From: a virus | Direction: 5' to 3' (one strand) | IMG/VR virus record: IMGVR_UViG_3300042868_010004 | Span: 124,001-188,000 of that record | DNA length: 64,000 nucleotides | Shown here: piece by piece, positions 5,697 through 63,874 of the stretch | Layout of the letters: the number at the start of each line of letters is the position of its first letter | Numbering within the stretch: the first letter of the stretch is position 1 | Translations under genes and position numbers: made by a program | Notes under the pieces: generated by a model | What the model saw: the letters and a program-made list of their open reading frames with translations, nothing else | What the model was told of the DNA's origin: nothing | Databases searched by the model: none

Positions 5697-6004
5697 TGAA
5701 AATCAAAAAAGAGATGGTGAAATTTAGTGACTATGAAGACCACGAGCTAATTGCTCAGAACGGTCTTTATGAGGATAGTCCGAACAAGGTTTCCTCAATG
5801 GAGGAAGGTTTGGCCGAAATATCCAAGACAATTCTTTCACCCTACTTCCTAGAAAGAGTCCGTGATTATTTGACCGAGCACGAGAAAATTCATTATACCC
5901 TGACTTTCGTTAAGAAGAAAAATGGGACGCGCAGCATTGTATTTGATTTTGAGCCGCACATACCTAGAAAAATTGTCAGAACCTATTACAATCTACCCGA
6001 ATGA
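5693..6004 (+). CDS. Unknown phage protein, 103 aa
   Basis: 103 aa, soluble. It starts with a tandem ATGATG overlapping the SLOG stop and overlaps the YopX gene start by four bases. No recognised domain. Confidence 0.55.
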   Translation: MMKIKKEMVKFSDYEDHELIAQNGLYEDSPNKVSSMEEGLAEISKTILSPYFLERVRDYLTEHEKIHYTLTFVKKKNGTRSIVFDFEPHIPRKIVRTYYNLPE

Positions 6005-6414
6005 AAAACCGACCAATCAAATTCCGAGTCTGGAACAAAAAGACGAACGAGTGGGTTCACGGTCCGCACAAAGAGCCCTGTTTGGACGGAGTGAATCTCT
6101 TCGGGGAAACCATCCTTCTCGGCGCATTCATGCCGGTCAGACTGGAGGAGTTAAATGATTGTATTGCCGTTCAATATACAGGCTTGAAAGATATTCACGG
6201 GGCAGAATTATTCGAAGGTGATATTTGCAAATACGAGGGAGACGACGGTAAATCATTCGACGGTGCGGTCATCGACTTCTTTTGGGGCTCCTTCCGTCTG
6301 AACGGAGATTACATTGATAGCTTCATTGAGAATGAACATGCGGCGGCGAAAGGCTCGACCTCGCTTGAAAAGATTGGGAATGCGTTTGAGAATCCAGAAT
6401 TGATGAAATTTTAA
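6001..6414 (+). CDS. YopX family protein (copy 1)
   Basis: 137 aa. The N-terminal IKFRVWNKKTNEW and central QYTGLKD..G.ELFEGDI segments are diagnostic of the YopX family, widespread in phages and prophages, with a beta-rich fold and no established function. Related copies lie at 30850 and 50604. Confidence 0.85.
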   Translation: MKNRPIKFRVWNKKTNEWVHGPHKEPCLDGVNLFGETILLGAFMPVRLEELNDCIAVQYTGLKDIHGAELFEGDICKYEGDDGKSFDGAVIDFFWGSFRLNGDYIDSFIENEHAAAKGSTSLEKIGNAFENPELMKF

Positions 6415-6418
6415 TTTT

Positions 6419-6664
6419 ATGAAATCAAGAGAAATAAAACCCGGAACAGTCTTCCGTATAATTGACCGAGGCACCGGAAAAGCGCAAGGCTCTTACAGTC
6501 GCGCCTGTTGTGATGAATATGATTTTGAATCCGCCCAAGAAGCCCGATATGCCAATTGTCACGGTATCTTTCAGTACAAGTCAAAATATAAAATAGCTAA
6601 ATATCAGGTTATATATAAATTGGTAGAAGACGATGTAGACACAGATCAAAAAACAAAACTATGA
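6419..6664 (+). CDS. Unknown small protein, 81 aa
   Basis: 81 aa with a beta-rich start (IKPGTVFRI) and a charged tail. Not recognised. Four-base overlap with the next gene. Confidence 0.55.
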   Translation: MKSREIKPGTVFRIIDRGTGKAQGSYSRACCDEYDFESAQEARYANCHGIFQYKSKYKIAKYQVIYKLVEDDVDTDQKTKL

Positions 6665-7029
6665 TTCCGGCACTGACAAATTACACAAAGAACGGCTTTT
6701 ATTATCAATTAGTCGAACGGCAAGGCGATTGGGCGATCTTCCGGCAATCAAGTAAGAAGGATTCAACAACCCCTCTTGACGTGGGTATGGCGTGGGAAGT
6801 ATTCAAGATTAAGGTCAGTAAGGGCGGCGACATGAAGGTTAAAGACAAAGATGGGAATCCTCTGATAATTCATTGCGAGCCAAAGGAATGCCCGCCGGGG
6901 GATGAAATGTTCGGTTCGAACGGGTGGTCCTGCCATACTCTGGCGCGCGCCCGCGAGAAAATGGCTGAACGAATGGCAGCGGAACAGGAGCGGGAAGAAG
7001 AGAAGAATAGAAGGAGCAAGACTGAATAA
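6661..7029 (+). CDS. Unknown phage protein, 122 aa
   Basis: 122 aa. The N-terminal half is aromatic and beta-like (FYYQLVERQGDWAIFRQ, then AWEVFKIKV); the C-terminal 30 residues are a highly charged helix. The central PPGDEMFG..GW segment is reminiscent of conserved phage proteins, but I cannot assign a function. Confidence 0.6.
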   Translation: MIPALTNYTKNGFYYQLVERQGDWAIFRQSSKKDSTTPLDVGMAWEVFKIKVSKGGDMKVKDKDGNPLIIHCEPKECPPGDEMFGSNGWSCHTLARAREKMAERMAAEQEREEEKNRRSKTE

Positions 7030-7062
7030 CAAAAACTGATAGTCAGTATAAGAATATCTAAT

Positions 7063-7566
7063 ATGCGTGAACCAAAAAAGGGTGAAATTGTCAGACTGAA
7101 AAACGATCCGAACAAAACCTACAAGGTCTTGGATTATTGCCTAGGTCTTGTCAGTCTGAGAGAGAATGTCCTTCGATCCCGGAACAAGACAGAAGTCAGC
7201 CTGAGTGAAATAGAATACACGGAGGCGGAGAAGGTCTGTTTGACGATGCCGGAGAAGAAAGCGATCCTTCGAAGGTTAGTCGAAGAGAAGACACTTAAGG
7301 AGAATTTTCAGAGGGAGATGATTCTTCTGTGCAAGATGTGGAAACGCCTGCCACACAGAGAGTTCTGGCTGGAAGGTTTCTGCCCAGCTCTGAAGGTTAA
7401 TTCAATGACTTACTGGTTTAATCGGCAGGAAGTTGAGGATTTGTATAAGAAATGGGCAGTAAATCTTGAAAGCAAACGGGAGGAGATTGTTTTAGAAAAA
7501 GAGAAGATTGGGAAGGATATTATCGTTCAGAAGCGAGCAAGGAACCTTTTAGAATTGTTGAAATAA
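7063..7566 (+). CDS. Unknown phage protein, 167 aa
   Basis: 167 aa. The first 25 residues (PKKGEIVRLKNDPNKTYKVL) look like a small SH3-like beta barrel; the remainder is helical with a charged C-terminus. The short upstream gap contains ACTGATAGTCAGT (7035-7047), a perfect 5-bp inverted repeat with 3-base loop. Function unknown. Confidence 0.6.
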   Translation: MREPKKGEIVRLKNDPNKTYKVLDYCLGLVSLRENVLRSRNKTEVSLSEIEYTEAEKVCLTMPEKKAILRRLVEEKTLKENFQREMILLCKMWKRLPHREFWLEGFCPALKVNSMTYWFNRQEVEDLYKKWAVNLESKREEIVLEKEKIGKDIIVQKRARNLLELLK

Positions 7567-7570
7567 ATTT

Positions 7571-8104
7571 ATGGAAAACTTAAATCAGTCAGAAATTAAA
7601 CCATTTATCATGCCCGAACATGATTGTTTTTGGTGTGGAGAGAAAACCCGGTCGATGCATTGGGCCTGTGAACGATGCGGGCCGCTGAAAGAAGAGGGAT
7701 ATGCGCGGGCGCGGGAAGCGGGAGAGAATAATTATGGACAAGTCATCAATCGCGTTTTTGACGTTTTAAAAGAAAATGGTGTCGGGATTGACTTGACAAA
7801 AACAACAAAACAAAACACTATACAACCCATGCCCACTCCAACTAAACTCGCACGGAATCCCAAATACAGAAAGAAAAGTAAATCCGTCTTCCAGAAGGCT
7901 CGCCAGACCTCGGACCTCTTCTGGAAACGCAAGTTAATGCAGGTTTTGGAAGTTTTTCACGATCAGGAACTTCACTGGCATAAAGAGTTGTGGTCGGATT
8001 ACGGTATTTCCGATGCCGAAGCGCGCGTGATTGAAAAGGCGTTCTCTGTCCAGAAGGCTTGGCGGGCTCGCGGACGGAATGATAAGGTCGGAGAGGTAGA
8101 TTGA
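7571..8104 (+). CDS. Zinc-ribbon protein fused to a second small domain
   Basis: 177 aa. Residues 17-37 carry CFWCGE...CERCG, a four-cysteine zinc ribbon. Residues 70-86 are low-complexity and are encoded by DNA that looks like a promoter. Residue 87 is a Met (ATG at 7829) that starts a basic helical domain (PTPTKLARNPKYRKK...). The gene may be a fusion of two formerly separate genes, or the second part may also be expressed on its own. No family recognised for either half. Confidence 0.6.
   Translation: MENLNQSEIKPFIMPEHDCFWCGEKTRSMHWACERCGPLKEEGYARAREAGENNYGQVINRVFDVLKENGVGIDLTKTTKQNTIQPMPTPTKLARNPKYRKKSKSVFQKARQTSDLFWKRKLMQVLEVFHDQELHWHKELWSDYGISDAEARVIEKAFSVQKAWRARGRNDKVGEVD
7793..7824 (+). 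promoter_or_regulatory. Candidate internal promoter inside the fused gene
   Basis: TTGACA (7793-7798) lies 17 bases before CACTAT and 20 before TATACA (7819-7824), within an A-rich stretch and just ahead of an in-frame ATG at 7829. This suits an old intergenic promoter now read through as protein. Confidence 0.35.
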
Positions 8105-8121
8105 AAAGAAGGACAAACAAT

Positions 8122-8493
8122 ATGGAGAAGTCAAAATATAATTCAAAAAACGAGTCTGGCGAGGATTTATATACCCTAAGCACACATCTTTTTGTTGCAG
8201 AGGGGGCGGTGAACGTAAGTAAGAATGTAAACAAGATTGAATGGCGGGCAGGCGAGGACGAGGAATACATGAAGTTTTGCCGCGAGCAATACGGAAGAGA
8301 GGAAAAGCCGGAACCTTTTCAAATTCAACCGCTTCGCTTTGAAGGGACTCCCGCTAATTTGCTCAATAGTCTTTTTGTGAATGCGGCATTTATTCTGGCG
8401 ACGGCGGAGGCAAATAAAAACGGCGAAGACGTGACGGAAATTTTCGAGAAACTAAAAACAGATTTTTTACACAAACTAACTAATAATCAATAA
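8122..8493 (+). CDS. Unknown phage protein, 123 aa
   Basis: 123 aa, acidic, C-terminal half helical. The ATG at 8122 is preferred over the upstream TTG at 8101 because AAGGA lies eight bases before it. It ends 13 bases before the recombinase gene, so may be co-expressed with it. No family recognised. Confidence 0.55.
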   Translation: MEKSKYNSKNESGEDLYTLSTHLFVAEGAVNVSKNVNKIEWRAGEDEEYMKFCREQYGREEKPEPFQIQPLRFEGTPANLLNSLFVNAAFILATAEANKNGEDVTEIFEKLKTDFLHKLTNNQ

Positions 8494-8506
8494 TTTATAA
8501 AATATC

Positions 8507-9634
8507 ATGGCACGACCAAAAAAAGATACGGGGAATGATGGGGAAGAGAATGTTTCGGGCTCCGAGTCCAAAAACGTTCTGAACGTCCTATTTAAGGCAA
8601 ATAAGACGGACCACTATAACTTTGAAGACGAAATTCATTATACGGTTCCCTCCTCCAGTATGATTCTAAATGCTCGTTTGAAAGGCGGTATTCCTCCGGG
8701 CGTTATCCGGCTGACGGGCGCGACTTCCGGAGGAAAATCGAGTGTTGCTCTCGACTTTATGAAAAACTTTCTCAAAGAGTCTTCTGACAAGGAGTTGCGC
8801 CGAGGGGTTTATTTTCGTTGCGAGGGTCGCTTATCCCCTGAAATCAAAGCTCGCTCTGGTGTAAAGTTTGTTAATTCTATTGATGAATGGGAGAACGGAA
8901 CATGTCTCATTGTCGATAGTAACGTATTTGAATTTGTTTTTGATATCGTTCGCCAGCTTATTGTCAAAAACGAGGAAAAATACAAGTTCATATTCTGTAT
9001 TGATAGCGTAGATATGATGGCAAAGCGGGCCGATCTTGAAAAGACTTTGGACGAGGCGGCGACTGTTGCCGGTGGCGCTCTTATTACCAGTGTATTCCTT
9101 AAGAAAGTGTCCACGGCACTAACTAAGCGTGGGCATATCGCTATTTTTATCTCTCAGGTGCGGGAAACGGTTAATATCAACCCTTACGCCAAGACCCCTC
9201 CAAAACAGGGTGGTGCATCAGGTGGGCACGCTCTTGAACATGCGGCCCAGACAGTGCTGGAATTTTTACCTCGTTATAATGATGATATTATCCGAGAGAA
9301 TGACGAAAAGAATGGGCGACCTATCGGGCATTATGCCAAGTGCAAGATCGTTAAGGATAACTCTGAGGGATATTTGACAGAAGTTCGTTATCCCATTATC
9401 TATGGCCGGACCAATGGTTCTTCTGTATGGCGCGAACGAGAGGTCTTGGATCTTCTTCAGATGTTTAACCTGATTACCCGAGCTGGAGCTTGGTATTATC
9501 TTGATGATGCTGTTAAGAAGGAGCTATCTGAAAAGAACCTCCCCTTTGATGAAAAGTATCAGGGTATTGGCGGTGTAAACGCTTGGCTAGAGCAGAACCC
9601 AGAGGTCGTCAACCATTTCGCCTCCAAATTTTAA
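8507..9634 (+). CDS. recA: RecA/UvsX-family recombinase
   Basis: 375 aa. A RecA-type ATPase core: Walker A GATSGGKSS (71-79), Walker B FIFCIDSVD (161-169), and an ISQVRET segment followed by the GGASGGHALEHAA region that corresponds to the DNA-binding loop and the end of the core. It would form filaments on single-stranded DNA and drive strand exchange for recombination-dependent replication and repair. The stop overlaps the ATG of an endonuclease gene (TAATG), and two nuclease genes follow. Assignment to RecA superfamily is secure; orthology to RecA versus UvsX is not. Confidence 0.9.
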   Translation: MARPKKDTGNDGEENVSGSESKNVLNVLFKANKTDHYNFEDEIHYTVPSSSMILNARLKGGIPPGVIRLTGATSGGKSSVALDFMKNFLKESSDKELRRGVYFRCEGRLSPEIKARSGVKFVNSIDEWENGTCLIVDSNVFEFVFDIVRQLIVKNEEKYKFIFCIDSVDMMAKRADLEKTLDEAATVAGGALITSVFLKKVSTALTKRGHIAIFISQVRETVNINPYAKTPPKQGGASGGHALEHAAQTVLEFLPRYNDDIIRENDEKNGRPIGHYAKCKIVKDNSEGYLTEVRYPIIYGRTNGSSVWREREVLDLLQMFNLITRAGAWYYLDDAVKKELSEKNLPFDEKYQGIGGVNAWLEQNPEVVNHFASKF

Positions 9635-10050
9635 TGAAGTGGTTTATTAAATCTGGCAAGTCCGTTAATCTGAATCCCTCAAGGTATAAAATTGATTGGA
9701 AAAGGAAGGTTAGCGGACCCCAGCTTGCCGTTAAAAATTTTCTTTTCAAATACTGGAAACATGATTTGGTTTTAGAGGAGATGGTCATCCCTAAGACGGG
9801 TGGCAAGCGATTTGATTTGGTTAATCTTACGACCAAGACTATTATTGAGGTTAGTCCAATATCGGTTCACCTCAAATACAATGAGTTCATGCACGGATCG
9901 GAAGATGGATATCTAAAAAAGTTAAAGTCAGATTATGACAAAATGCTCGTGGCCGAATTAAACAAATTTAAGTTTATCGAATTACACGACAACGAGATAA
10001 ATAATCTTTCAAAAGAAATGCTTAAGGAGAAGTTCGGACTTGACCTCTAA
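9634..10050 (+). CDS. PD-(D/E)XK-type endonuclease, probable homing enzyme
   Basis: 138 aa, starting at the ATG that overlaps the recombinase stop. GGKRFDLVNL...TIIEVSP (residues 50-68) has the D...ExV arrangement of a divergent PD-(D/E)XK core, in the style of small very-short-patch-repair-like phage nucleases. The N-terminal SGPQLAVKNFLFKYW resembles the helix before the core in such enzymes. A role as free-standing homing endonuclease is inferred from its position beside a replication gene and next to a second endonuclease. Confidence 0.65.
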   Translation: MKWFIKSGKSVNLNPSRYKIDWKRKVSGPQLAVKNFLFKYWKHDLVLEEMVIPKTGGKRFDLVNLTTKTIIEVSPISVHLKYNEFMHGSEDGYLKKLKSDYDKMLVAELNKFKFIELHDNEINNLSKEMLKEKFGLDL

Positions 10051-11113
10051 GAAGCCTATAAAAATGGGGATAGACGATCACGTCAGAGCGATAGCTTTGA
10101 TCAAAGCAGGCTGGTTATGTCAGGGTATCGCCGCCGAGTTTGATTGTTCTTGGCCTGTCATTTCTAGAATCGCGGCCAAATATGATTTGAAATTTTCACA
10201 ATATAAAAAAGAATTTTCTTACAGACAAGAACAAGAAATTGTAAGAGATTATTTGGACGGGGAATCACTTGAATCACTTTTCTCTAAGAATAAAACGGGG
10301 ACAGAAAACATTAAAAGGGTTCTGGAAAAATACGAAATTCCGCTAAGAGATAATAAGATAAGCGAAGAAAAAAAGAACGAAGTCCAATATCTATATGAGG
10401 AAACGGATTTAGATATAACAAACATAGAAAAACAGACGAAAGTTGGATATACCTCTATTTTAAAATTAGCAAAAAAAAGAGGATGGGCAAGAAAAATCTG
10501 GAAAAGAAAATTCTTCAAAGATGTTTGGGCCTTTGATCTTACTAAAGAAGAGGTTGAAAAGAAGTTAAACGAAGTAAGAAAAAAGCAATCGGAAAATTCT
10601 TCTGGTGAGAACAACCCGATGTATGGAAAACCCACTCCGAACGGGGCGGGCAACGGATGGAAGGGCCGATACAAGGGACGATATTTTAGGAGCCTCCAAG
10701 AAGCATCGTTCATGATAGAAAAAGATGATGCTGGGATTGCTTTTGAAAACGGGGAAACTATGACGATCCCTTACGAATTTATGGGCCGGAAGAGAACCTA
10801 CCGACCAGACTTTATTATCGGTGATACTGTTTATGAATTGAAGCCGAAAAAATTAATGAAGTCTGCTGTTATTTTGGCGAAAAAAGAAGCGGCAGAAAAA
10901 TATTTGGCAGACAAGGGAATGAAATATGTATTGATGGAGCAAAAATACGATTTCAACAAGATAAAGGTTGCGGTGGCTCTCAAACATATTATCCTTGCCG
11001 CAGATTACATGGATCGTCTTCTTTACAGAATCTTTACGGAGGGTGGTATGCTTGTAGATACAACTTATGAAACTTTTAAAAAAGCAAGGGAAAGCAGAAG
11101 GAATGAAAAATGA
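10040..11113 (+). CDS. NUMOD3-containing endonuclease with PD-(D/E)XK domain
   Basis: 357 aa from a TTG at 10040 that has AAGGAGA ten bases upstream; the first ATG (10064) has no such site. Residues 1-150 hold repeated helix-turn-helix-like segments. ENNPMYGK near 192 is the NUMOD3 motif of homing endonucleases. RTYRPDFII...YELKPK (about 255-275) is a PD-(D/E)XK active site as in TnsA- or Vsr-like nucleases. Codon use is AT-rich with AGA arginines, unlike the recombinase gene. It overlaps both neighbours. Best read as a mobile homing endonuclease. Confidence 0.75.
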   Translation: MTSKKPIKMGIDDHVRAIALIKAGWLCQGIAAEFDCSWPVISRIAAKYDLKFSQYKKEFSYRQEQEIVRDYLDGESLESLFSKNKTGTENIKRVLEKYEIPLRDNKISEEKKNEVQYLYEETDLDITNIEKQTKVGYTSILKLAKKRGWARKIWKRKFFKDVWAFDLTKEEVEKKLNEVRKKQSENSSGENNPMYGKPTPNGAGNGWKGRYKGRYFRSLQEASFMIEKDDAGIAFENGETMTIPYEFMGRKRTYRPDFIIGDTVYELKPKKLMKSAVILAKKEAAEKYLADKGMKYVLMEQKYDFNKIKVAVALKHIILAADYMDRLLYRIFTEGGMLVDTTYETFKKARESRRNEK

Positions 11114-29124: not shown

Positions 29125-29646
29125 ATGAGTGATAACCCGTTGTATAGTGATGTTAAAATTGATGGAAAGCCCTATCAGAAGGGCGACTACGCCAAATATG
29201 CCGTTTGGAACGATAAGGAAATTAAAGGTTTCTTTGGTGAGAACCGATGGCTTTCTAATTTTTGGCCCGTAAATATTTTTGGCTTTCCATCGGTTGAAAA
29301 CGCATATATGGCGGCGAAGATCGTTCTGGGCGACAGAGAGTATTTTAAGACCTGTTCCCCGACCGAGGCTAAGAAGAATTGGAGGAAGTTCAAACTTAAA
29401 GACGCCGCCCCGTCTGATTGGGATGCGCGAAAATTTGATGTTATGAGTCGGTGTATTTTCGAGAAGTTTTTGGTAGATTTGGAATTACGCTCAAAATTGC
29501 TGAATACTAGAGACAAATATTTGGAGGAGTTAAATTTTTGGGGTGATACTTACTGGGGCGTAGATATTAAAAAGGGTGGGAAAAATAATCTTGGGAAAAT
29601 ACTTATGGGGGTCAGAGACTTCTGGAAGAATCAAAATAAGGTTTGA
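29125..29646 (+). CDS. NADAR (YbiA/RibX-like) domain protein
   Basis: 173 aa. GFFGENRWLSNFWP (35-48), FPSVENAYMAAK (54-65, with the conserved Glu), a VM..CIFEKF helix and GDTYWGV...NNLGKILMGVR at the C-terminus cover the whole NADAR domain. Members are reported to process ADP-ribosylated compounds, including ADP-ribosylated guanine, and some phages and toxin loci carry them. In a phage it could undo host ADP-ribosylation defence. That role is inference. It begins four bases after the polymerase gene. Confidence 0.85.
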   Translation: MSDNPLYSDVKIDGKPYQKGDYAKYAVWNDKEIKGFFGENRWLSNFWPVNIFGFPSVENAYMAAKIVLGDREYFKTCSPTEAKKNWRKFKLKDAAPSDWDARKFDVMSRCIFEKFLVDLELRSKLLNTRDKYLEELNFWGDTYWGVDIKKGGKNNLGKILMGVRDFWKNQNKV

Positions 29647-37519: not shown

Positions 37520-38104
37520 ATGAATAAAAAGTTGCACATTTTTCAAGACCTCGACGGGTGCCTAGCAGACTTCTGTAATGCCGCGATGAAAGCTCTCGGC
37601 GTGACAAAATATACAATCCCCCCGAATGAGCCAAATATGGAGAAGTGGCCGGGTGTAAATTGCACCACGAAAGAATTCTGGCTGGCAATTGATAAGACAG
37701 AGGAAGACTTCTGGGTCGGGATTGAGAAGTTCCCCCATTCGGACCCAATCATGAAAATGCTTCATACCTATGGGGACGTTTTTTTTCTCACGAGCCCATC
37801 GCGGAATCCGAAATGTCTGTCCGGGAAAGCCATGTGGATTAAAAAGCACTATCCCCGCATGGTCAGAAATGTAGTTTATACTCCTGCGAAATATCTTTGT
37901 GCCAATTCGCATTCTATACTTTTAGACGACACGAGCGCGAAAATAAAGAAGTTCGCCGAACATGGGGGTTGGACAATCATGTGGCCGCAACCTTATAATG
38001 AAGCATGGGCGGATTTTCAACCGTATAAGGGGAATTATCAGGAGTATATTCGGGTGAAGCTGGAAGAAATCAAAAGCAAGATTCAACAAGACTATCAGGC
38101 ATGA
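37520..38104 (+). CDS. HAD-family 5'(3')-deoxyribonucleotidase-like protein
   Basis: 194 aa from the ATG at 37520. FQDLDGCLADF (motif I, Asp10 and Asp12), FLTSPS (motif II Ser/Thr), and LLDDTSAKIKKF (motif IV) are HAD phosphatase signatures in the arrangement of NT5C-type deoxyribonucleotidases. It likely dephosphorylates nucleotides or a similar small substrate in the phage nucleotide pathway. Confidence 0.75.
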   Translation: MNKKLHIFQDLDGCLADFCNAAMKALGVTKYTIPPNEPNMEKWPGVNCTTKEFWLAIDKTEEDFWVGIEKFPHSDPIMKMLHTYGDVFFLTSPSRNPKCLSGKAMWIKKHYPRMVRNVVYTPAKYLCANSHSILLDDTSAKIKKFAEHGGWTIMWPQPYNEAWADFQPYKGNYQEYIRVKLEEIKSKIQQDYQA

Positions 38105-52150: not shown

Positions 52151-53569
52151 ATGAGCAAACTAACTGTAAAAGCCAAAAATACCAACTATTGCGCCCGCCT
52201 AATCCGCCTTCCCGCGCCGCGAGCCCATTCTAACGCAAATAAATTGCTTTGTGTGTCTGTGCTCGGCAATAATGTAATCACGGGGTTGAACGCCACCGAA
52301 GGAGCGCCCTACGTTTTCTTCCCGCTCGAAAGTTCAATCAACACGGAATATCTTACTCACTCTAATTCGTTGGACGACCCCTCGTTGAATCGAGACAAGA
52401 AAACCAAGGGTTTCTTTTCGCCTAAACATGGCCGGGTTAAGGCTTTGTCGCTTAGGTCGGAGAGATCGGAAGGTTACGCTGCGCCCGCTCACACTATTGA
52501 GGAGTGGTCTGGTTATAAATTCAAGGAAGATGACTTCGATAAGGATTTTGACCATATCGGAGATGTAAAGCTGTGCGAGAAATATATTAATCGTGATGCG
52601 CTCCGAAAACAAAATCAGGCCGAAAATCGAGCGAAGAAGGGCGGAAAAGTTAAGCGCGAAAGTAGATTGGTCGAGAATCAATTTCGTTTGAGTCCTGATT
52701 ACAAACAATTGAAGCGCGAAATTGTTACCCTTAAACCTGACGACTGGATTGAAATTACTTCTAAGTGGCACGGCGCGAATGGGGTTATTTCAAGAGTTTT
52801 AACCAAACGAAAACTATCTGTCGCCGATAAAATCGCAAAGTTTTTTGGCGCGCAAGTTATTGAATCGCAATACGATCTGGTTTACGCGTCAAGGCGCGTA
52901 ATTAAGAATGAGTTCGCCGATCAAAAGTCAGGCAGCTTTTACGACTCAAACATTTGGGAAATTGTTGCGAATAAATACAAGGATGCACTTCAGGACGGAA
53001 TCACCTTAATTGGTGAGGTCGTGGGTTATACTCCTACGGGAACGCCTATTCAGAGTATGAAGGGCAAGGCTTACGATTACGGCTGTGAGGTTGGGAAATG
53101 TGATTTTATCGTATTTCGAATTAATTATACCAATCCATCAGGGAAGGTTTTTGAATTTTCTTTCCAGCAGGTTATGGATTATTGTAAGAAATACGGGCTC
53201 AAGCATGTTCCGGTATATTTTATCGGACAGGCGAAAGAACTGTATTATAATCTTTATTTAAAACATGAATATTCTCATAATAATTCCGCTTTCGCCGATT
53301 GTGGAATTGAACCCGACGAGCAAATTGATGGGCGCGGCTGGCGTGATAAGTTTTTACAGTTGCTGGTCAAAGAATATTTGGAGAAAGACGATATTTATTG
53401 TAAGACTAAAGGTTTGGCGGATGAAGGAATTGTTCTGTCTCGCCGAGTTGATGTGTTTGAAGGGCTTAAATTAAAATCTTTTAAATTTCTTCAAGGGGAA
53501 ACTCAAGAGGCTGATGACGGAAAGGTTGATATGGAAACACAAGAATCAGTAGAAACACCGAATGAATAA
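52151..53569 (+). CDS. RNA ligase
   Basis: 472 aa. The nucleotidyltransferase motif I is TSKWHG (Lys205, the likely AMP-linked residue), with motif IV-like DEGIVLSRR and motif V-like LKLKSFKFL near 420-450, as in Rnl2/Rnl5-type RNA ligases. The first 190 residues form a separate domain with a basic stretch (AKKGGKVKRE). It overlaps a polynucleotide kinase gene by eight bases, and a phosphoesterase follows. The set would heal and seal cut RNA, such as tRNA cleaved by host anticodon nucleases. Confidence 0.8.
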   Translation: MSKLTVKAKNTNYCARLIRLPAPRAHSNANKLLCVSVLGNNVITGLNATEGAPYVFFPLESSINTEYLTHSNSLDDPSLNRDKKTKGFFSPKHGRVKALSLRSERSEGYAAPAHTIEEWSGYKFKEDDFDKDFDHIGDVKLCEKYINRDALRKQNQAENRAKKGGKVKRESRLVENQFRLSPDYKQLKREIVTLKPDDWIEITSKWHGANGVISRVLTKRKLSVADKIAKFFGAQVIESQYDLVYASRRVIKNEFADQKSGSFYDSNIWEIVANKYKDALQDGITLIGEVVGYTPTGTPIQSMKGKAYDYGCEVGKCDFIVFRINYTNPSGKVFEFSFQQVMDYCKKYGLKHVPVYFIGQAKELYYNLYLKHEYSHNNSAFADCGIEPDEQIDGRGWRDKFLQLLVKEYLEKDDIYCKTKGLADEGIVLSRRVDVFEGLKLKSFKFLQGETQEADDGKVDMETQESVETPNE

Positions 53570-54026
53570 AAAACAAATCATAATGACCATCGGGTGCTCC
53601 GGCTCCGGCAAGTCCACTTGGGCGCGGAAATTCCTAGAACAGAACCCCGATTATATCTATTTAAATGCGGATACCATGCGGTTATGCATGACCGGAGATG
53701 AATCAAATCAAGATCGGAATCATCAAGTATTCCAAACTTTAGAGAACATGGTCGGTTATTTCATGATTCTCGGGAAAAATCTGATCATAGATTGCACAAA
53801 CTATAATCGTAAAAACCGCTTGATTTGGAACAGGCTGGCGACTGCGCATGATTATCAGAAAACTTGGGTTGTCTTTCAGACAAGTTTGGAACAATGCATT
53901 CGGAACAATGAGAAGCGGGAGCGCCGTGTTCCTGTTGATGTAATCCGTCGCCAGCATGAAAATCTGTCTTTACCGCTTGACGAGGGTGGGGAAATTCAGT
54001 ATGTTGATTGGGAAAACCATGCTTAA
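53562..54026 (+). CDS. Polynucleotide 5'-kinase
   Basis: 154 aa. MTIGCSGSGKSTWARKF (P-loop 11-19), LNADTMR and LIIDCTNYN...RKNR match the T4 Pnkp kinase domain; no HAD phosphatase domain is attached. It would add the 5' phosphate needed by the RNA ligase gene that overlaps it upstream. A metallophosphoesterase gene overlaps it downstream by eight bases. Confidence 0.85.
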   Translation: MNKKQIIMTIGCSGSGKSTWARKFLEQNPDYIYLNADTMRLCMTGDESNQDRNHQVFQTLENMVGYFMILGKNLIIDCTNYNRKNRLIWNRLATAHDYQKTWVVFQTSLEQCIRNNEKRERRVPVDVIRRQHENLSLPLDEGGEIQYVDWENHA

Positions 54027-54672
54027 ACCACTAAAGTTCAAAGGGGATGAGTCTAAGTTCTTCTATATCAGTGATTTCCATCACCATCATGATCGGGATT
54101 TCATCTGGGGAAAAAGAGAATTTAAGTCAGTAGAGGAATCTGATGCTACTCTGATCCAACGATGGAATGAAACTTGTGATGAAGAATCTATCGTATTCCA
54201 CCTTGGGGATTTCATTTTCAGCGATGGCACAGGCGAAAAATTCTACAAACTGATTGAACGGCTGAGATTTAAAGAACTGAACCTTCTTTTGGGAAATCAC
54301 GTATCAGGTCAGAGACAGGCTTACCAAAAGCAGATGAAGGAGCAGTTTGGTGAGGTAGATTTCGAAGTCTATCCTCTGTCTTTCATTCATCAAGGGAAAA
54401 AGATCACATTTCTACCTCAGTATGTCGAAATGTATGTTAATTCAACGGAGATTGTCTGTTGTCACTATCCGATTATTTCTCATAACGGGTTGAGTAAGAG
54501 GGCTTTACATTTTTGCGGACACTCGCACGGCGGCTGCGAAATTACTAATAAAGACACGGGCAAAGGCTTTCGTTTGGATGTTGGGGTTGAATCTTTTGGA
54601 AGGCCGATTAGTCTGAAAGAAGCAAAAAATTATCTGAAAGACCGAACGATTGATACGGTTGACCACCACTAA
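54019..54672 (+). CDS. Calcineurin-like phosphoesterase of the RNA-repair set
   Basis: 217 aa from the ATG at 54019 (54001 is an alternative). ISDFHHHHDRDF, HLGDFI, LLGNHVSG, CCHYPI and CGHSHG give all metallophosphoesterase motifs. In bacterial Pnkp of the Hen1 system, kinase, a metallophosphoesterase-type phosphatase and ligase are fused; here similar activities are three adjacent overlapping genes. It may remove 2',3'-cyclic or 3' phosphates before sealing; this is inferred from context. Confidence 0.75.
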   Translation: MLKPLKFKGDESKFFYISDFHHHHDRDFIWGKREFKSVEESDATLIQRWNETCDEESIVFHLGDFIFSDGTGEKFYKLIERLRFKELNLLLGNHVSGQRQAYQKQMKEQFGEVDFEVYPLSFIHQGKKITFLPQYVEMYVNSTEIVCCHYPIISHNGLSKRALHFCGHSHGGCEITNKDTGKGFRLDVGVESFGRPISLKEAKNYLKDRTIDTVDHH

Positions 54673-57093: not shown

Positions 57094-57450
57094 ATGAATA
57101 AAATCTATCTAATCCAATTTGATAATGGCGAGTCTTGGGAAGACAGACATGTTTCCGATATTTGTGCCTGTCTAAATAAAATCCAAGCTGAAAGTCTCGT
57201 TAAAGAACTCAGCGATTGGATCGAAAAGGCCCGGTCGGAAATGCCCGCCTGTTATTATGATTCTCCGGAATATAAAGACGGAGTTCTGACCGATGAACAG
57301 ATGGAGCGGCATGAGGCCGAACAACGGAAGTGGTTTGACAGCTTGTGTCCGCCTTATGGCTTCAATCAGGTCCGATCTGCAATTAGTGAGTTCGGGCAGC
57401 ATTCCGGTTGGGTTAGCATGAAAGAAGTCGATCTTTTCGAGAAATTATGA
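57094..57450 (+). CDS. Unknown protein, 118 aa
   Basis: 118 aa from the ATG at 57094 (TTTTATG). Beta start (KIYLIQFDNGESW), charged middle. No family recognised. ATGA overlap with the macrodomain-like gene. Confidence 0.5.
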   Translation: MNKIYLIQFDNGESWEDRHVSDICACLNKIQAESLVKELSDWIEKARSEMPACYYDSPEYKDGVLTDEQMERHEAEQRKWFDSLCPPYGFNQVRSAISEFGQHSGWVSMKEVDLFEKL

Positions 57451-57899
57451 AATTGAAATACACACCAGATAGAATTACAGAACTCCATGATGGGCAAATC
57501 TTTTGCTACGGGGCGAATCGTGCAGGCAGACACGGAGCCGGAGCCGCGAAATTGGCCCTTCAGAAGTTCGGCGCGCAATACGGGAAGGTCGGCTTGGTCG
57601 GGCAATCCTATGGGCTTTGCACGAAAGACGAAAATATTAGGACGCTGCCTTTGCATGAAATTAAAGCGGAGATTAAGGAATTTATGCAGATCGCCGAAAA
57701 TAATCCTCAATGGGACTTTTTAATGACCGAGATTGGTTGCGGCCTCGCAAATTATTCCGCTTCAGATATTGCCCCACTCTTTTGTAATTTTAATAGGCCG
57801 ATTAATGTATTTTTCCCTAAGTCTTTTGAGGATTATTGGGCAGAAAATGGTTTCGGTTATTTCAATGTGAAAAATTACGGAGAAGATCATGCTGACTAA
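57447..57899 (+). CDS. Macrodomain-like A1S_2505-type phage protein
   Basis: 150 aa. CYGANRAGRHGAGAAKLALQKFGA (21-44), GQSYGLCTKDENIRTLP, and EIGCGLANYSASDIAPLF are the hallmarks of the phage family often named A1S_2505. The layout (glycine-rich loop after the first strand, late G.G.A.Y loop) resembles an ADP-ribose-binding macrodomain. If so it could remove or bind ADP-ribose, as would the NADAR protein at 29125. Macrodomain relation is my inference. Confidence 0.65.
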   Translation: MKLKYTPDRITELHDGQIFCYGANRAGRHGAGAAKLALQKFGAQYGKVGLVGQSYGLCTKDENIRTLPLHEIKAEIKEFMQIAENNPQWDFLMTEIGCGLANYSASDIAPLFCNFNRPINVFFPKSFEDYWAENGFGYFNVKNYGEDHAD

Positions 57900-61842: not shown

Positions 61843-62340
61843 ATGAATAAGACTTACCAATACATCGCTGGATTACAGGAATCAACTGGGGAAATTATTT
61901 ATTCCCGCGCTCGCCATGATTACAGGCAGACTACAGATTCATCGTGCTTTGTCGATGGCGGATTGGACTATTTCCGTCACGGTTGGGACGCCACAAAAGG
62001 TCCGCCGTTGAAACAGGTCGTAATTGAATTGGAAGTCAGTCCTGCTGCATTATATAATGACTGGAATAACCGGAAAGATAAGTTTGGAAAGACTCATATT
62101 TCCGAGGTCCGTATTGTCCCGCCGGAAGAATATGAGGACCGCCAATCTTTTGCATTTAAGAAAAAGTATTCTCAGTGGGGAACTCTCGGGAAGGACGGAT
62201 TGGGTCCGCGCCGCCAAGTGATGCTGTCTGAATGCCAATCAGATCATTTGCAAGCGATTCTTGATACCCAGAATGTCGGGCCGGAGGCTCGGGCGATCAT
62301 ACGGTCTATTCTGGCCGACCGAGGAATTAAAAGCGATTGA
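61843..62340 (+). CDS. Unknown conserved protein, 165 aa
   Basis: 165 aa from the ATG at 61843. SRARHDYR...FVDGGLDYFRHGW is a distinctive motif found in small phage/prophage proteins without known function; a helical SECQSDHLQAILDTQ segment follows. Overlaps the phosphoesterase start by four bases. Confidence 0.6.
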   Translation: MNKTYQYIAGLQESTGEIIYSRARHDYRQTTDSSCFVDGGLDYFRHGWDATKGPPLKQVVIELEVSPAALYNDWNNRKDKFGKTHISEVRIVPPEEYEDRQSFAFKKKYSQWGTLGKDGLGPRRQVMLSECQSDHLQAILDTQNVGPEARAIIRSILADRGIKSD

Positions 62341-62930
62341 AAACCATAAAGTTAGACTCCTACCCAGTTCTTATCTGTTCTGATCCTCACTGCCGCACGG
62401 ATAAATTAGACCAGATCAAAAATAAGCATCCCGAGATAACCAATCGGTTTATGCTCGGAGATCTTTTTAATTTTGTTGACGAGCTTGGGCGAATGACGAA
62501 AGAAGGGAATAAAGAGACGGGCGAATGGCTGAAACAAAATATCAACGATTGGAATTTCGTGACCGGAAATCACTGCATCGTCGTCTGTAAAAATTGGTGG
62601 CAATACGATCTCAGTCAGGAGGTTTACGATTTGGTCGCGGGGAAATTCAGTTTGCAATACAGGTTGGAAATTCAGGATAAGGCATACCTGCTTTTGCATT
62701 CCAAGCCGAAGTCTCTTTGGGATTTCATTAATCCGGGGTATCAGTTTAGGGAATTAGAGGAGGATTTTCCGAATTATGAGGAGTTCACGGCGGCGATTGG
62801 CGGACATGTCCATAAAGAATTCCGCCACGTTTGGCCCGATTGTGATTTTCAGATTTGGCAGGTCGGAGCGGTTCGGGATGGCCGATACGGTATTCTGACA
62901 GAGAAGGGACTTGACTTTTGCGGAATCTGA
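62337..62930 (+). CDS. Metallophosphoesterase
   Basis: 197 aa from a TTG that overlaps the preceding stop. ICSDPHCR, FMLGDLFNF, VTGNHC, LLHSKP and IGGHVHKE provide the calcineurin-like metal ligands. It is the third metallophosphoesterase in the window, after 12721 and 54019; substrate unknown. Confidence 0.8.
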   Translation: MKTIKLDSYPVLICSDPHCRTDKLDQIKNKHPEITNRFMLGDLFNFVDELGRMTKEGNKETGEWLKQNINDWNFVTGNHCIVVCKNWWQYDLSQEVYDLVAGKFSLQYRLEIQDKAYLLLHSKPKSLWDFINPGYQFRELEEDFPNYEEFTAAIGGHVHKEFRHVWPDCDFQIWQVGAVRDGRYGILTEKGLDFCGI

Positions 62931-62951
62931 GACAATCTCAGGATCGAATTT

Positions 62952-63299
62952 ATGAAAACAAACAATCCAAATAAAATGTTCCGCGCTTTCACTCATTTAA
63001 GCCGTTCGTGGTATGGAGAAACCTGTCTAGCCGGGCAGAAATATCTAGACGAGGTTATGTTCGGAATGTATGATGAAGATGGCGGGACAACCGGGGAAAT
63101 GTCTGTGAAGTGGTATGACCTTGGAAGGAAAAGAACTCCAAGGCTGGAATGTTTTGATGACTCATGGGAAATTCTGTCTGGGATGAAGGATGTTTTGGAT
63201 GAAATGGCCAAGGTCGATTCGGAAGATATTGCGCCGGAGAAATTTTGTAAGATTTTGCTGTCTTGCGGATTTAAAGACATGACGGAAGAAAAGCGTTAA
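62952..63299 (+). CDS. Unknown protein, 115 aa
   Basis: 115 aa, FRAFTHLSRSWYGETCLAGQKYLDEVMFGMYDEDGGTTGEMSVKWYDLG is beta-rich. TTTATG start context. No family recognised. Confidence 0.5.
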   Translation: MKTNNPNKMFRAFTHLSRSWYGETCLAGQKYLDEVMFGMYDEDGGTTGEMSVKWYDLGRKRTPRLECFDDSWEILSGMKDVLDEMAKVDSEDIAPEKFCKILLSCGFKDMTEEKR

Positions 63300-63310
63300 A
63301 AATAAAAAAC

Positions 63311-63874
63311 ATGAAAAAACAAATTAAATTTTTGGCACTAGGATCAACCCGCATGTGTGGAAAAGATACTTTCTGCAAACTTCTGCAAGAAATAAATCCC
63401 AATATCAAAAGAGTTGCATTAGCTGATACCCTCAAATCTATTCTGGACGGGCCTTGTTTTAGGGTTTTCAACAAAAATATTTCAGCACTAACTCCCGAGC
63501 AGAAAGAAAAAATGCGCCCGTTAATGATTGAATTCGGTCGAATGGCGCGGAACGAAGATATTGATTTTTGGTGTAAGGAAATACAAGAGCAGATTGAAAT
63601 TTATGATTCGGTGACAAATTATAAGGATGCAATTTATTGTTTGACGGATTTAAGGTATAGTTCAGAATTTGCATTCTTTAAAAAAATCTATGGGGACAGC
63701 ATGATTTTCATCAATATCACAAGAGATGGCGCGCCGGAACCAACATCGGAAGAACTTATCCATGGGCCGGAAGTCGCCAAACTTGCCGATCTGAATTTTC
63801 ACTGGAAGACCGATCCGACTTTGGAATCATTACGCCCGCAGATCAAAGAGTTCTATGACAAGTATCTGAAATAA
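63311..63874 (+). CDS. Deoxynucleoside monophosphate kinase-like P-loop protein
   Basis: 187 aa. FLALGSTRMCGKDTFCKLL has a P-loop of the GxxxxGKDT kind typical of phage deoxynucleotide monophosphate kinases and related adenylate-kinase-fold enzymes; LADTLKS and TDLRYSSEFAFF further on agree. It would phosphorylate dNMPs, completing the nucleotide set with ThyX and dUTPase. Confidence 0.78.
   Translation: MKKQIKFLALGSTRMCGKDTFCKLLQEINPNIKRVALADTLKSILDGPCFRVFNKNISALTPEQKEKMRPLMIEFGRMARNEDIDFWCKEIQEQIEIYDSVTNYKDAIYCLTDLRYSSEFAFFKKIYGDSMIFINITRDGAPEPTSEELIHGPEVAKLADLNFHWKTDPTLESLRPQIKEFYDKYLK

Follow-up and report, generated by a model that had tools for sequence, protein, structure and literature searches.

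Our analysis suggests that three adjacent genes of a large, uncultured phage probably form a cassette for the healing and sealing of broken RNA ends, in which a metallophosphoesterase (MPE) replaces the HAD-type 3'-phosphatase of T4-type Pnkp. Phages counter RNA-cutting defenses through RNA healing and sealing. The stretch analyzed, here called the window, spans 64,000 nucleotides, bases 124001 to 188000 of the 191,122-base virus record IMGVR_UViG_3300042868_010004. The genes and their features, in window coordinates, are as follows.

52151 to 53569, plus strand: RNA ligase, 472 amino acids, an N-terminal OB-like domain followed by a nucleotidyltransferase domain (PF09414, PHROG 968, structural model)
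52763 to 52774, plus strand: ligase motif I, KWHG, with K205 as the predicted AMP-accepting lysine (alignment of 10 diverse relatives)
53562 to 53569, plus strand: 8-nt overlap of ligase stop and kinase start, ATGAATAA (sequence)
53562 to 54026, plus strand: polynucleotide 5'-kinase, kinase domain only, 154 amino acids (PF13671, PHROG 505, PDB matches)
53592 to 53618, plus strand: kinase P-loop, GCSGSGKST (sequence and alignment)
54019 to 54026, plus strand: 8-nt overlap of kinase stop and MPE start, ATGCTTAA (sequence)
54019 to 54672, plus strand: MPE, 217 amino acids, predicted RNA 3'-end phosphatase (PHROG 547, structural model)
54073 to 54081, plus strand: MPE metal motif DFH (D19, H21), near-invariant in 15 MPEs
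54292 to 54300, plus strand: MPE motif GNH (residues 92 to 94), invariant in 15 MPEs
54517 to 54528, plus strand: MPE motif GHSH (residues 167 to 170), with G167, H168, and H170 invariant in 15 MPEs

The catalytic motifs of all three proteins are intact. Although the longest open reading frame of the MPE begins at 53956, we placed its start at the ATG at 54019 (MLKPLKFKGDE...) because this fits the N termini of the relatives in loci L100, L080, and L002.

In the mechanism that we favor, a host or defense RNase would cut RNA to leave a 5'-OH and a 3'-phosphate or 2',3'-cyclic phosphate. The kinase-only protein would then use ATP to phosphorylate the 5' end, as its family and intact active site suggest, and the PHROG 547 MPE would clear the 3' end to OH, the role of the fused HAD domain in T4-type Pnkp. 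We assign this step to the MPE because it recurs with HAD-less kinases and because its metal ligands are intact. Finally, the ligase would adenylylate K205, activate the 5'-phosphate, and seal. Judging from its closest structural relative, the site would most likely be a nick in base-paired RNA. Since that relative, the Naegleria RNA ligase, is an enzyme with an OB and a nucleotidyltransferase domain and reported nick-sealing activity (PMC9931718), breaks in duplex RNA would be at least as likely a substrate as breaks in the anticodon loop; by this analogy, an anticodon-loop target is possible but not favored.

The role proposed for the MPE is consistent with where genes of its family occur. 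Among 77 nonredundant loci, assembled from ligase relatives in viral contigs and named phages, kinases of at least 258 amino acids all carried an HAD domain (26 loci), while shorter kinases never did; a kinase with HAD is thus the usual partner near relatives of the ligase, in keeping with the statement in the preliminary description that T4 uses an HAD-type phosphatase. A PHROG 547 MPE lay within 3 kb in 11 of 18 kinase-only loci versus 1 of 26 kinase-HAD loci (P = 4e-5; this and the other survey P values ignore the relatedness of the loci). The first count includes locus L044, added with its MPE at 0.8 kb, and leaves out the kinases of L026, L027, L045, and L061, which were dropped on inspection as members of another family, PHROG 2071, a match that was confirmed. 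Without that addition and with the four PHROG 2071 kinases, the counts become 10 of 22 versus 1 of 26 (P = 1.1e-3). A kinase-anchored survey, independent of the ligase-anchored one and with zero DNA in common, found an MPE within 3 kb of 10 of 21 kinase-only genes versus 2 of 39 longer kinases (P = 2e-4). An independent-pairs test on the ligase tree, of low power with its four usable (starred) pairs, yielded none in the opposite direction. At several kinase-only loci (L036, L040, L065, L077, and L099), the neighborhood lacks an MPE, though four of these five contigs carry one elsewhere.

The combination of a kinase-only gene with an MPE probably arose more than once, as judged from the trees. 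In the kinase tree, the kinase-only plus MPE group L051/L053/L044 is nested within kinase-HAD rows, which points to a probable separate loss of HAD and gain of MPE there; the window group and the group of L035, L041, L058, and L064 lie in other parts of the tree. In the ligase tree, starred branches require at least three changes of state.

The window MPE matches PHROG 547 (E = 2e-32), scores under the gathering score of PF12850, and conserves the metal motifs DxH, GD, GNH, H, and GHxH; the 15 MPEs of the motif alignment come mostly from RNA-ligase loci. Sequence searches of the PDB were uninformative, with nothing meaningful for the MPE and just one spurious glycosidase match for the ligase, and structure searches were therefore needed. 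The MPE model (pLDDT 84) has one significant PDB match, 1xm7 (AQ665 from Aquifex; E = 7.8e-7), a protein with no assigned function. A scan of viral contigs with the single MPE sequence gave nothing, while a two-sequence alignment query succeeded. In all, 1,047 phage records match the window MPE, and just 6 of 78 other MPE loci contain any kinase like that of the cassette. Because the family is this broad among phages, membership in PHROG 547 does not imply RNA repair.

This breadth also bears on a less probable though serious reading, in which RNA repair falls to the kinase and ligase, the 3' end is healed by a different phage or host enzyme, and the MPE is employed elsewhere, where it may degrade a defense signal or cut nucleic acid. 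PHROG 547 is widespread beyond RNA repair loci, and a weak match (E = 0.0013) links the window MPE with PdeM, a family of endonucleases. The chief competitor for 3'-phosphatase activity is an HAD of the NT5C type encoded 14 kb upstream (37520 to 38101); in G001, a related gene is found 0.25 kb away from the kinase. Stand-alone "Swiss-army-knife" HADs in jumbo phages have been given a 3'-phosphatase-type role (PMC7824862). A second MPE of the same phage (62337 to 62927) could supply this activity as well. However, the MPE gene is the one that overlaps the kinase gene, in two independent sets MPEs come after kinases lacking HAD much more frequently than after those with HAD, and the PHROG match of the NT5C gene is a 5'-3' deoxyribonucleotidase, which points to nucleotide metabolism.

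Other phosphatase arrangements were seen among the surveyed loci. L274 carries a kinase-only gene (5881 to 6459) and, 3.3 kb downstream, a separate T4-type HAD gene (9779 to 10342), which looks like a third arrangement. In L061 (15855 to 18642) and L045 (17712 to 21107), four genes stand in a row, for a 2H-like phosphoesterase, a PHROG 2071 kinase, a second protein resembling an RNA ligase, and an HD-like protein; healing may here follow an HD-based variant. A home-made 2H model matched in these two loci only.

The ligase of the cassette matches PF09414 (RNA_ligase; E = 2.6e-7) and PHROG 968 (E = 6e-41) in profile searches, and K205, H207, G208, E289, E425, K440, and K442 are invariant among its 10 diverse aligned relatives. 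The best 13 PDB matches of its AlphaFold2 model (pLDDT 87) are all Naegleria gruberi RNA ligase (best E = 3e-15; target-normalized TM, 0.65 to 0.72), followed by T4 Rnl2 and other RNA ligases. As modeled, the fold is that of the Naegleria RNA ligase type and not that of the Pnkp type. The Naegleria enzyme is a member of the Rnl5 family, and the features of that type present in the window ligase are the N-terminal OB domain, the nucleotidyltransferase domain, and K205, H207, E289, E425, K440, and K442. The TIGR02306 profile (DRB0094 ligases) is matched by 7 of the 10 aligned relatives; in profile searches, the window ligase (P0001) itself matched neither TIGR02306 nor the bacterial Pnkp profile TIGR04075. 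The sole relative found on a genome contig lies on a cyanobacterial metagenome-assembled contig, on which neither a kinase nor an MPE was recognized by eye.

These properties of the ligase weigh on whether DNA breaks, and not RNA, are the main target of the cassette, which we consider very unlikely. T4-type kinases act on DNA as well, and certain MPEs, PdeM among them, carry the annotation DNA endonuclease; against this, motif I reads KWHG as in RNA ligases, and DNA ligases score far below RNA ligases in the structure search. Gene neighborhoods argue likewise for RNA: the kinase-MPE pair of L157 has a TROVE-like gene beside it, and the ligase relative of L017 has a Ro-like protein, a nucleotidyltransferase, and tRNA genes in its vicinity.

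The kinase matches PF13671 (E = 1.8e-26) and PHROG 505 (polynucleotide kinase; E = 2e-28) in profile searches, and K17, S18, and T19 of the P-loop together with D37, R40, D77, R119, and R121 are invariant in kinase alignment A9. No HAD HMM matched, and the protein is without an HAD domain because its 154 residues stop after the kinase domain. In the PDB, the kinase of T4 Pnkp matches it best (1ly1; E = 9.1e-19), ahead of a bacterial Pnkp kinase (4gp7; E = 6.3e-11). A quick tree places it with the kinases of L205 (87% identical) and L080. The wider group (SH-aLRT 91, not starred) comprises kinase-only genes and bacterial Pnkp kinases without any kinase-HAD protein; those of the T4 type fall in other parts of the tree. 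The grouping of the window kinase with bacterial Pnkp kinases is moderately supported by this tree, but the PDB scores favor T4 Pnkp.

The preliminary description took the three genes for a set resembling a split Pnkp, the bacterial-type chemistry residing in separate genes. The predicted chemistry holds up, with three predicted activities in separate open reading frames; descent from Pnkp does not. That a single bacterial polypeptide was divided by fission into separate genes for its kinase, MPE, and ligase domains is highly improbable, even though the same three chemistries are predicted, the kinase groups with those of bacterial Pnkps, and it matches TIGR04075 at E = 5e-19. This match is the sole one in the whole 191-kb record: the MPE matched neither TIGR04075 in a profile search nor the full-length Pnkps of Nostoc and Rhodococcus by phmmer or a family HMM, whereas the MPE of L025, serving as a positive control, matched the profile at E = 7.7e-16 and the full-length Pnkps at E = 7.2e-14. 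The ligase has a Naegleria-like fold with its N-terminal OB domain, and the gene order is ligase-kinase-MPE instead of kinase-MPE-ligase. The Hen1-like methyltransferase for which a search elsewhere in the genome had been suggested (PF12623) was not found in the 191-kb record, which may be incomplete, and neither RtcB nor the 2H family PF13563 had a match there. These results largely refute a split Pnkp for the ligase and the MPE. In its phosphatase, it is L025 rather than the window that comes nearest to a split Pnkp, because the L025 MPE matches Pnkp. That locus (5878 to 8844) has an 8-nt ligase/kinase overlap followed by a Pnkp-type MPE (TIGR04075 positions 212 to 399), apparently an MPE of another family filling the role of the window MPE.

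Finally, the pairwise overlap of eight bases noted at the outset was borne out, both junctions being exactly 8 nt with all three genes on the plus strand, and it suggests coupled translation of ligase, kinase, and MPE. Short gene overlaps are common in this densely packed genome: a rough call of 118 genes gave 4-nt overlaps in 20 adjacent plus-strand pairs and 8-nt overlaps in 4. What stands above chance is not the overlap itself but the gene set recurring across phages. That three unrelated genes fell together in a dense early region, as such common overlaps might allow, is hardly credible and is refuted by the same set occurring in at least 10 divergent phage loci.

The order ligase-kinase-MPE is kept in L002, L080, L035, L041, L051, L053, L058, L064, and L205. 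Identities to the window are 47% for the ligase, 74% for the kinase, and 70% for the MPE in L080; 57%, 38%, and 38%, respectively, in L002; and 29%, 87%, and 40% in L205. Because these values disagree, the ligase has a history different from that of its partners. Identities correlate between kinase and MPE (rho 0.46), between ligase and kinase (0.01), and between ligase and MPE (0.30) in a manner that, for these nonindependent pairs, would fit a mobile kinase-MPE pair, and the kinase of L205, with its 87% against 40% for the MPE, shows that on sequence identity this link is a loose one. Read by eye, the kinase-MPE pair adjoins a gene for a Ro60/TROVE-like RNA-binding protein in L157, lies near another ligase-like gene in L112, and stands alone in L121. 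In the L100 genome, all three genes are scattered across about 16 kb.

In one relative, L080 (7947 to 10741), the RNA ligase gene is apparently fractured by a split intein directly after the active-site KLHG. The upstream open reading frame reads ...KLHG-CVDKETIIKTLEYGDIT, the downstream one opens with an intein-like end, ...NGILIHN-TSG, and a separate endonuclease-like open reading frame (8917 to 9921) lies between the two ligase parts.

Elsewhere in the genome, three tRNA genes lie at 10.8 to 11.2 kb of the record. The second MPE is followed by a nucleotide-kinase-like gene (62337 to 63874), an order also found in L100 (711 to 2227), whose phage has a 58%-identical MPE. A NADAR-domain protein (29125 to 29646; PF08719, E = 6e-19) is a possible ADP-ribose-related counterdefense gene, as its domain suggests, and L002 apparently has a NADAR gene near its ligase too. 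The product of 57447 to 57899 is an A1S_2505-family phage protein (NF049995, E = 1.8e-36; PHROG 2072), macro-domain-like by eye and with no Pfam match. Two minus-strand genes for TnpB-like transposon proteins (L012, 7220 to 8419; L011, 4985 to 6235) belong to the same phage. The ends of the record (L006, 1 to 150; L013, 4970 to 5122) carry tandem repeats of about 25 nt resembling CGTTGAAGCGTGGGGAAGTTCTCA, and because of this tandem repetition, the 127-base match between the ends may be a repeat and not a true terminal repeat.

Beyond this phage, we tentatively propose that the PHROG 547 (AQ665-like) MPEs found with HAD-less kinases may be a hitherto unrecognized family of RNA 3'-end healing phosphatases and that kinase and MPE may form a mobile module, adopted independently by several phage lineages in place of kinase-HAD Pnkp and moving between ligases; we hold this broader proposal with somewhat less than even confidence. 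If true, many phage "phosphoesterase" annotations would gain a testable function, 3' healing by an abundant family. The phosphatase would then be an exchangeable part of the repair system, its exchange perhaps tuned to the RNA ends left by different defense nucleases.

Like T4 with its Pnkp and RNA ligase, the cassette has an ATP-dependent phage RNA ligase and a 5'-kinase, and the two kinases belong to one family (1ly1). In T4, the HAD 3'-phosphatase is fused C-terminally to the kinase, whereas the window kinase stands alone with the MPE gene next to it, and in place of Rnl1 there is a ligase with the Naegleria-type OB and nucleotidyltransferase domains. With the bacterial Pnkp-Hen1 system (TIGR04075), it shares the chemistries of kinase, MPE-superfamily phosphatase, and ligase, as well as a related kinase; there, they reside in one polypeptide, while the window has three genes, a ligase of an unrelated subfamily, a dissimilar MPE, and no Hen1 match. 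The bacterial Pnkp1-Rnl-Hen1 complex also has a separate ligase, cotranslated with and before the kinase protein, but differs from the window in the T4-like HAD phosphatase on Pnkp1 and in its Hen1 partner (PMC4411300); phosphatases of two unrelated superfamilies are thus already found in bacterial repair systems (PMC4411300). Like the Naegleria gruberi and DraRnl-type (TIGR02306) RNA ligases, the window ligase has an N-terminal OB domain and a nucleotidyltransferase domain, but it lacks a match to that model, is longer, and sits in a phage healing operon. Phosphatase substitution as such, by calcineurin-like phosphatases of the MPE type, had been predicted for a small number of jumbo phages (Iyer et al. 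2021, PMC7824862). Compared with those jumbo-phage sets, what the present analysis gives, in a phage with a 191-kb record, is a named MPE family with a kinase-only partner, a gene order, and recurrence across phages, together with quantitative support from statistics.
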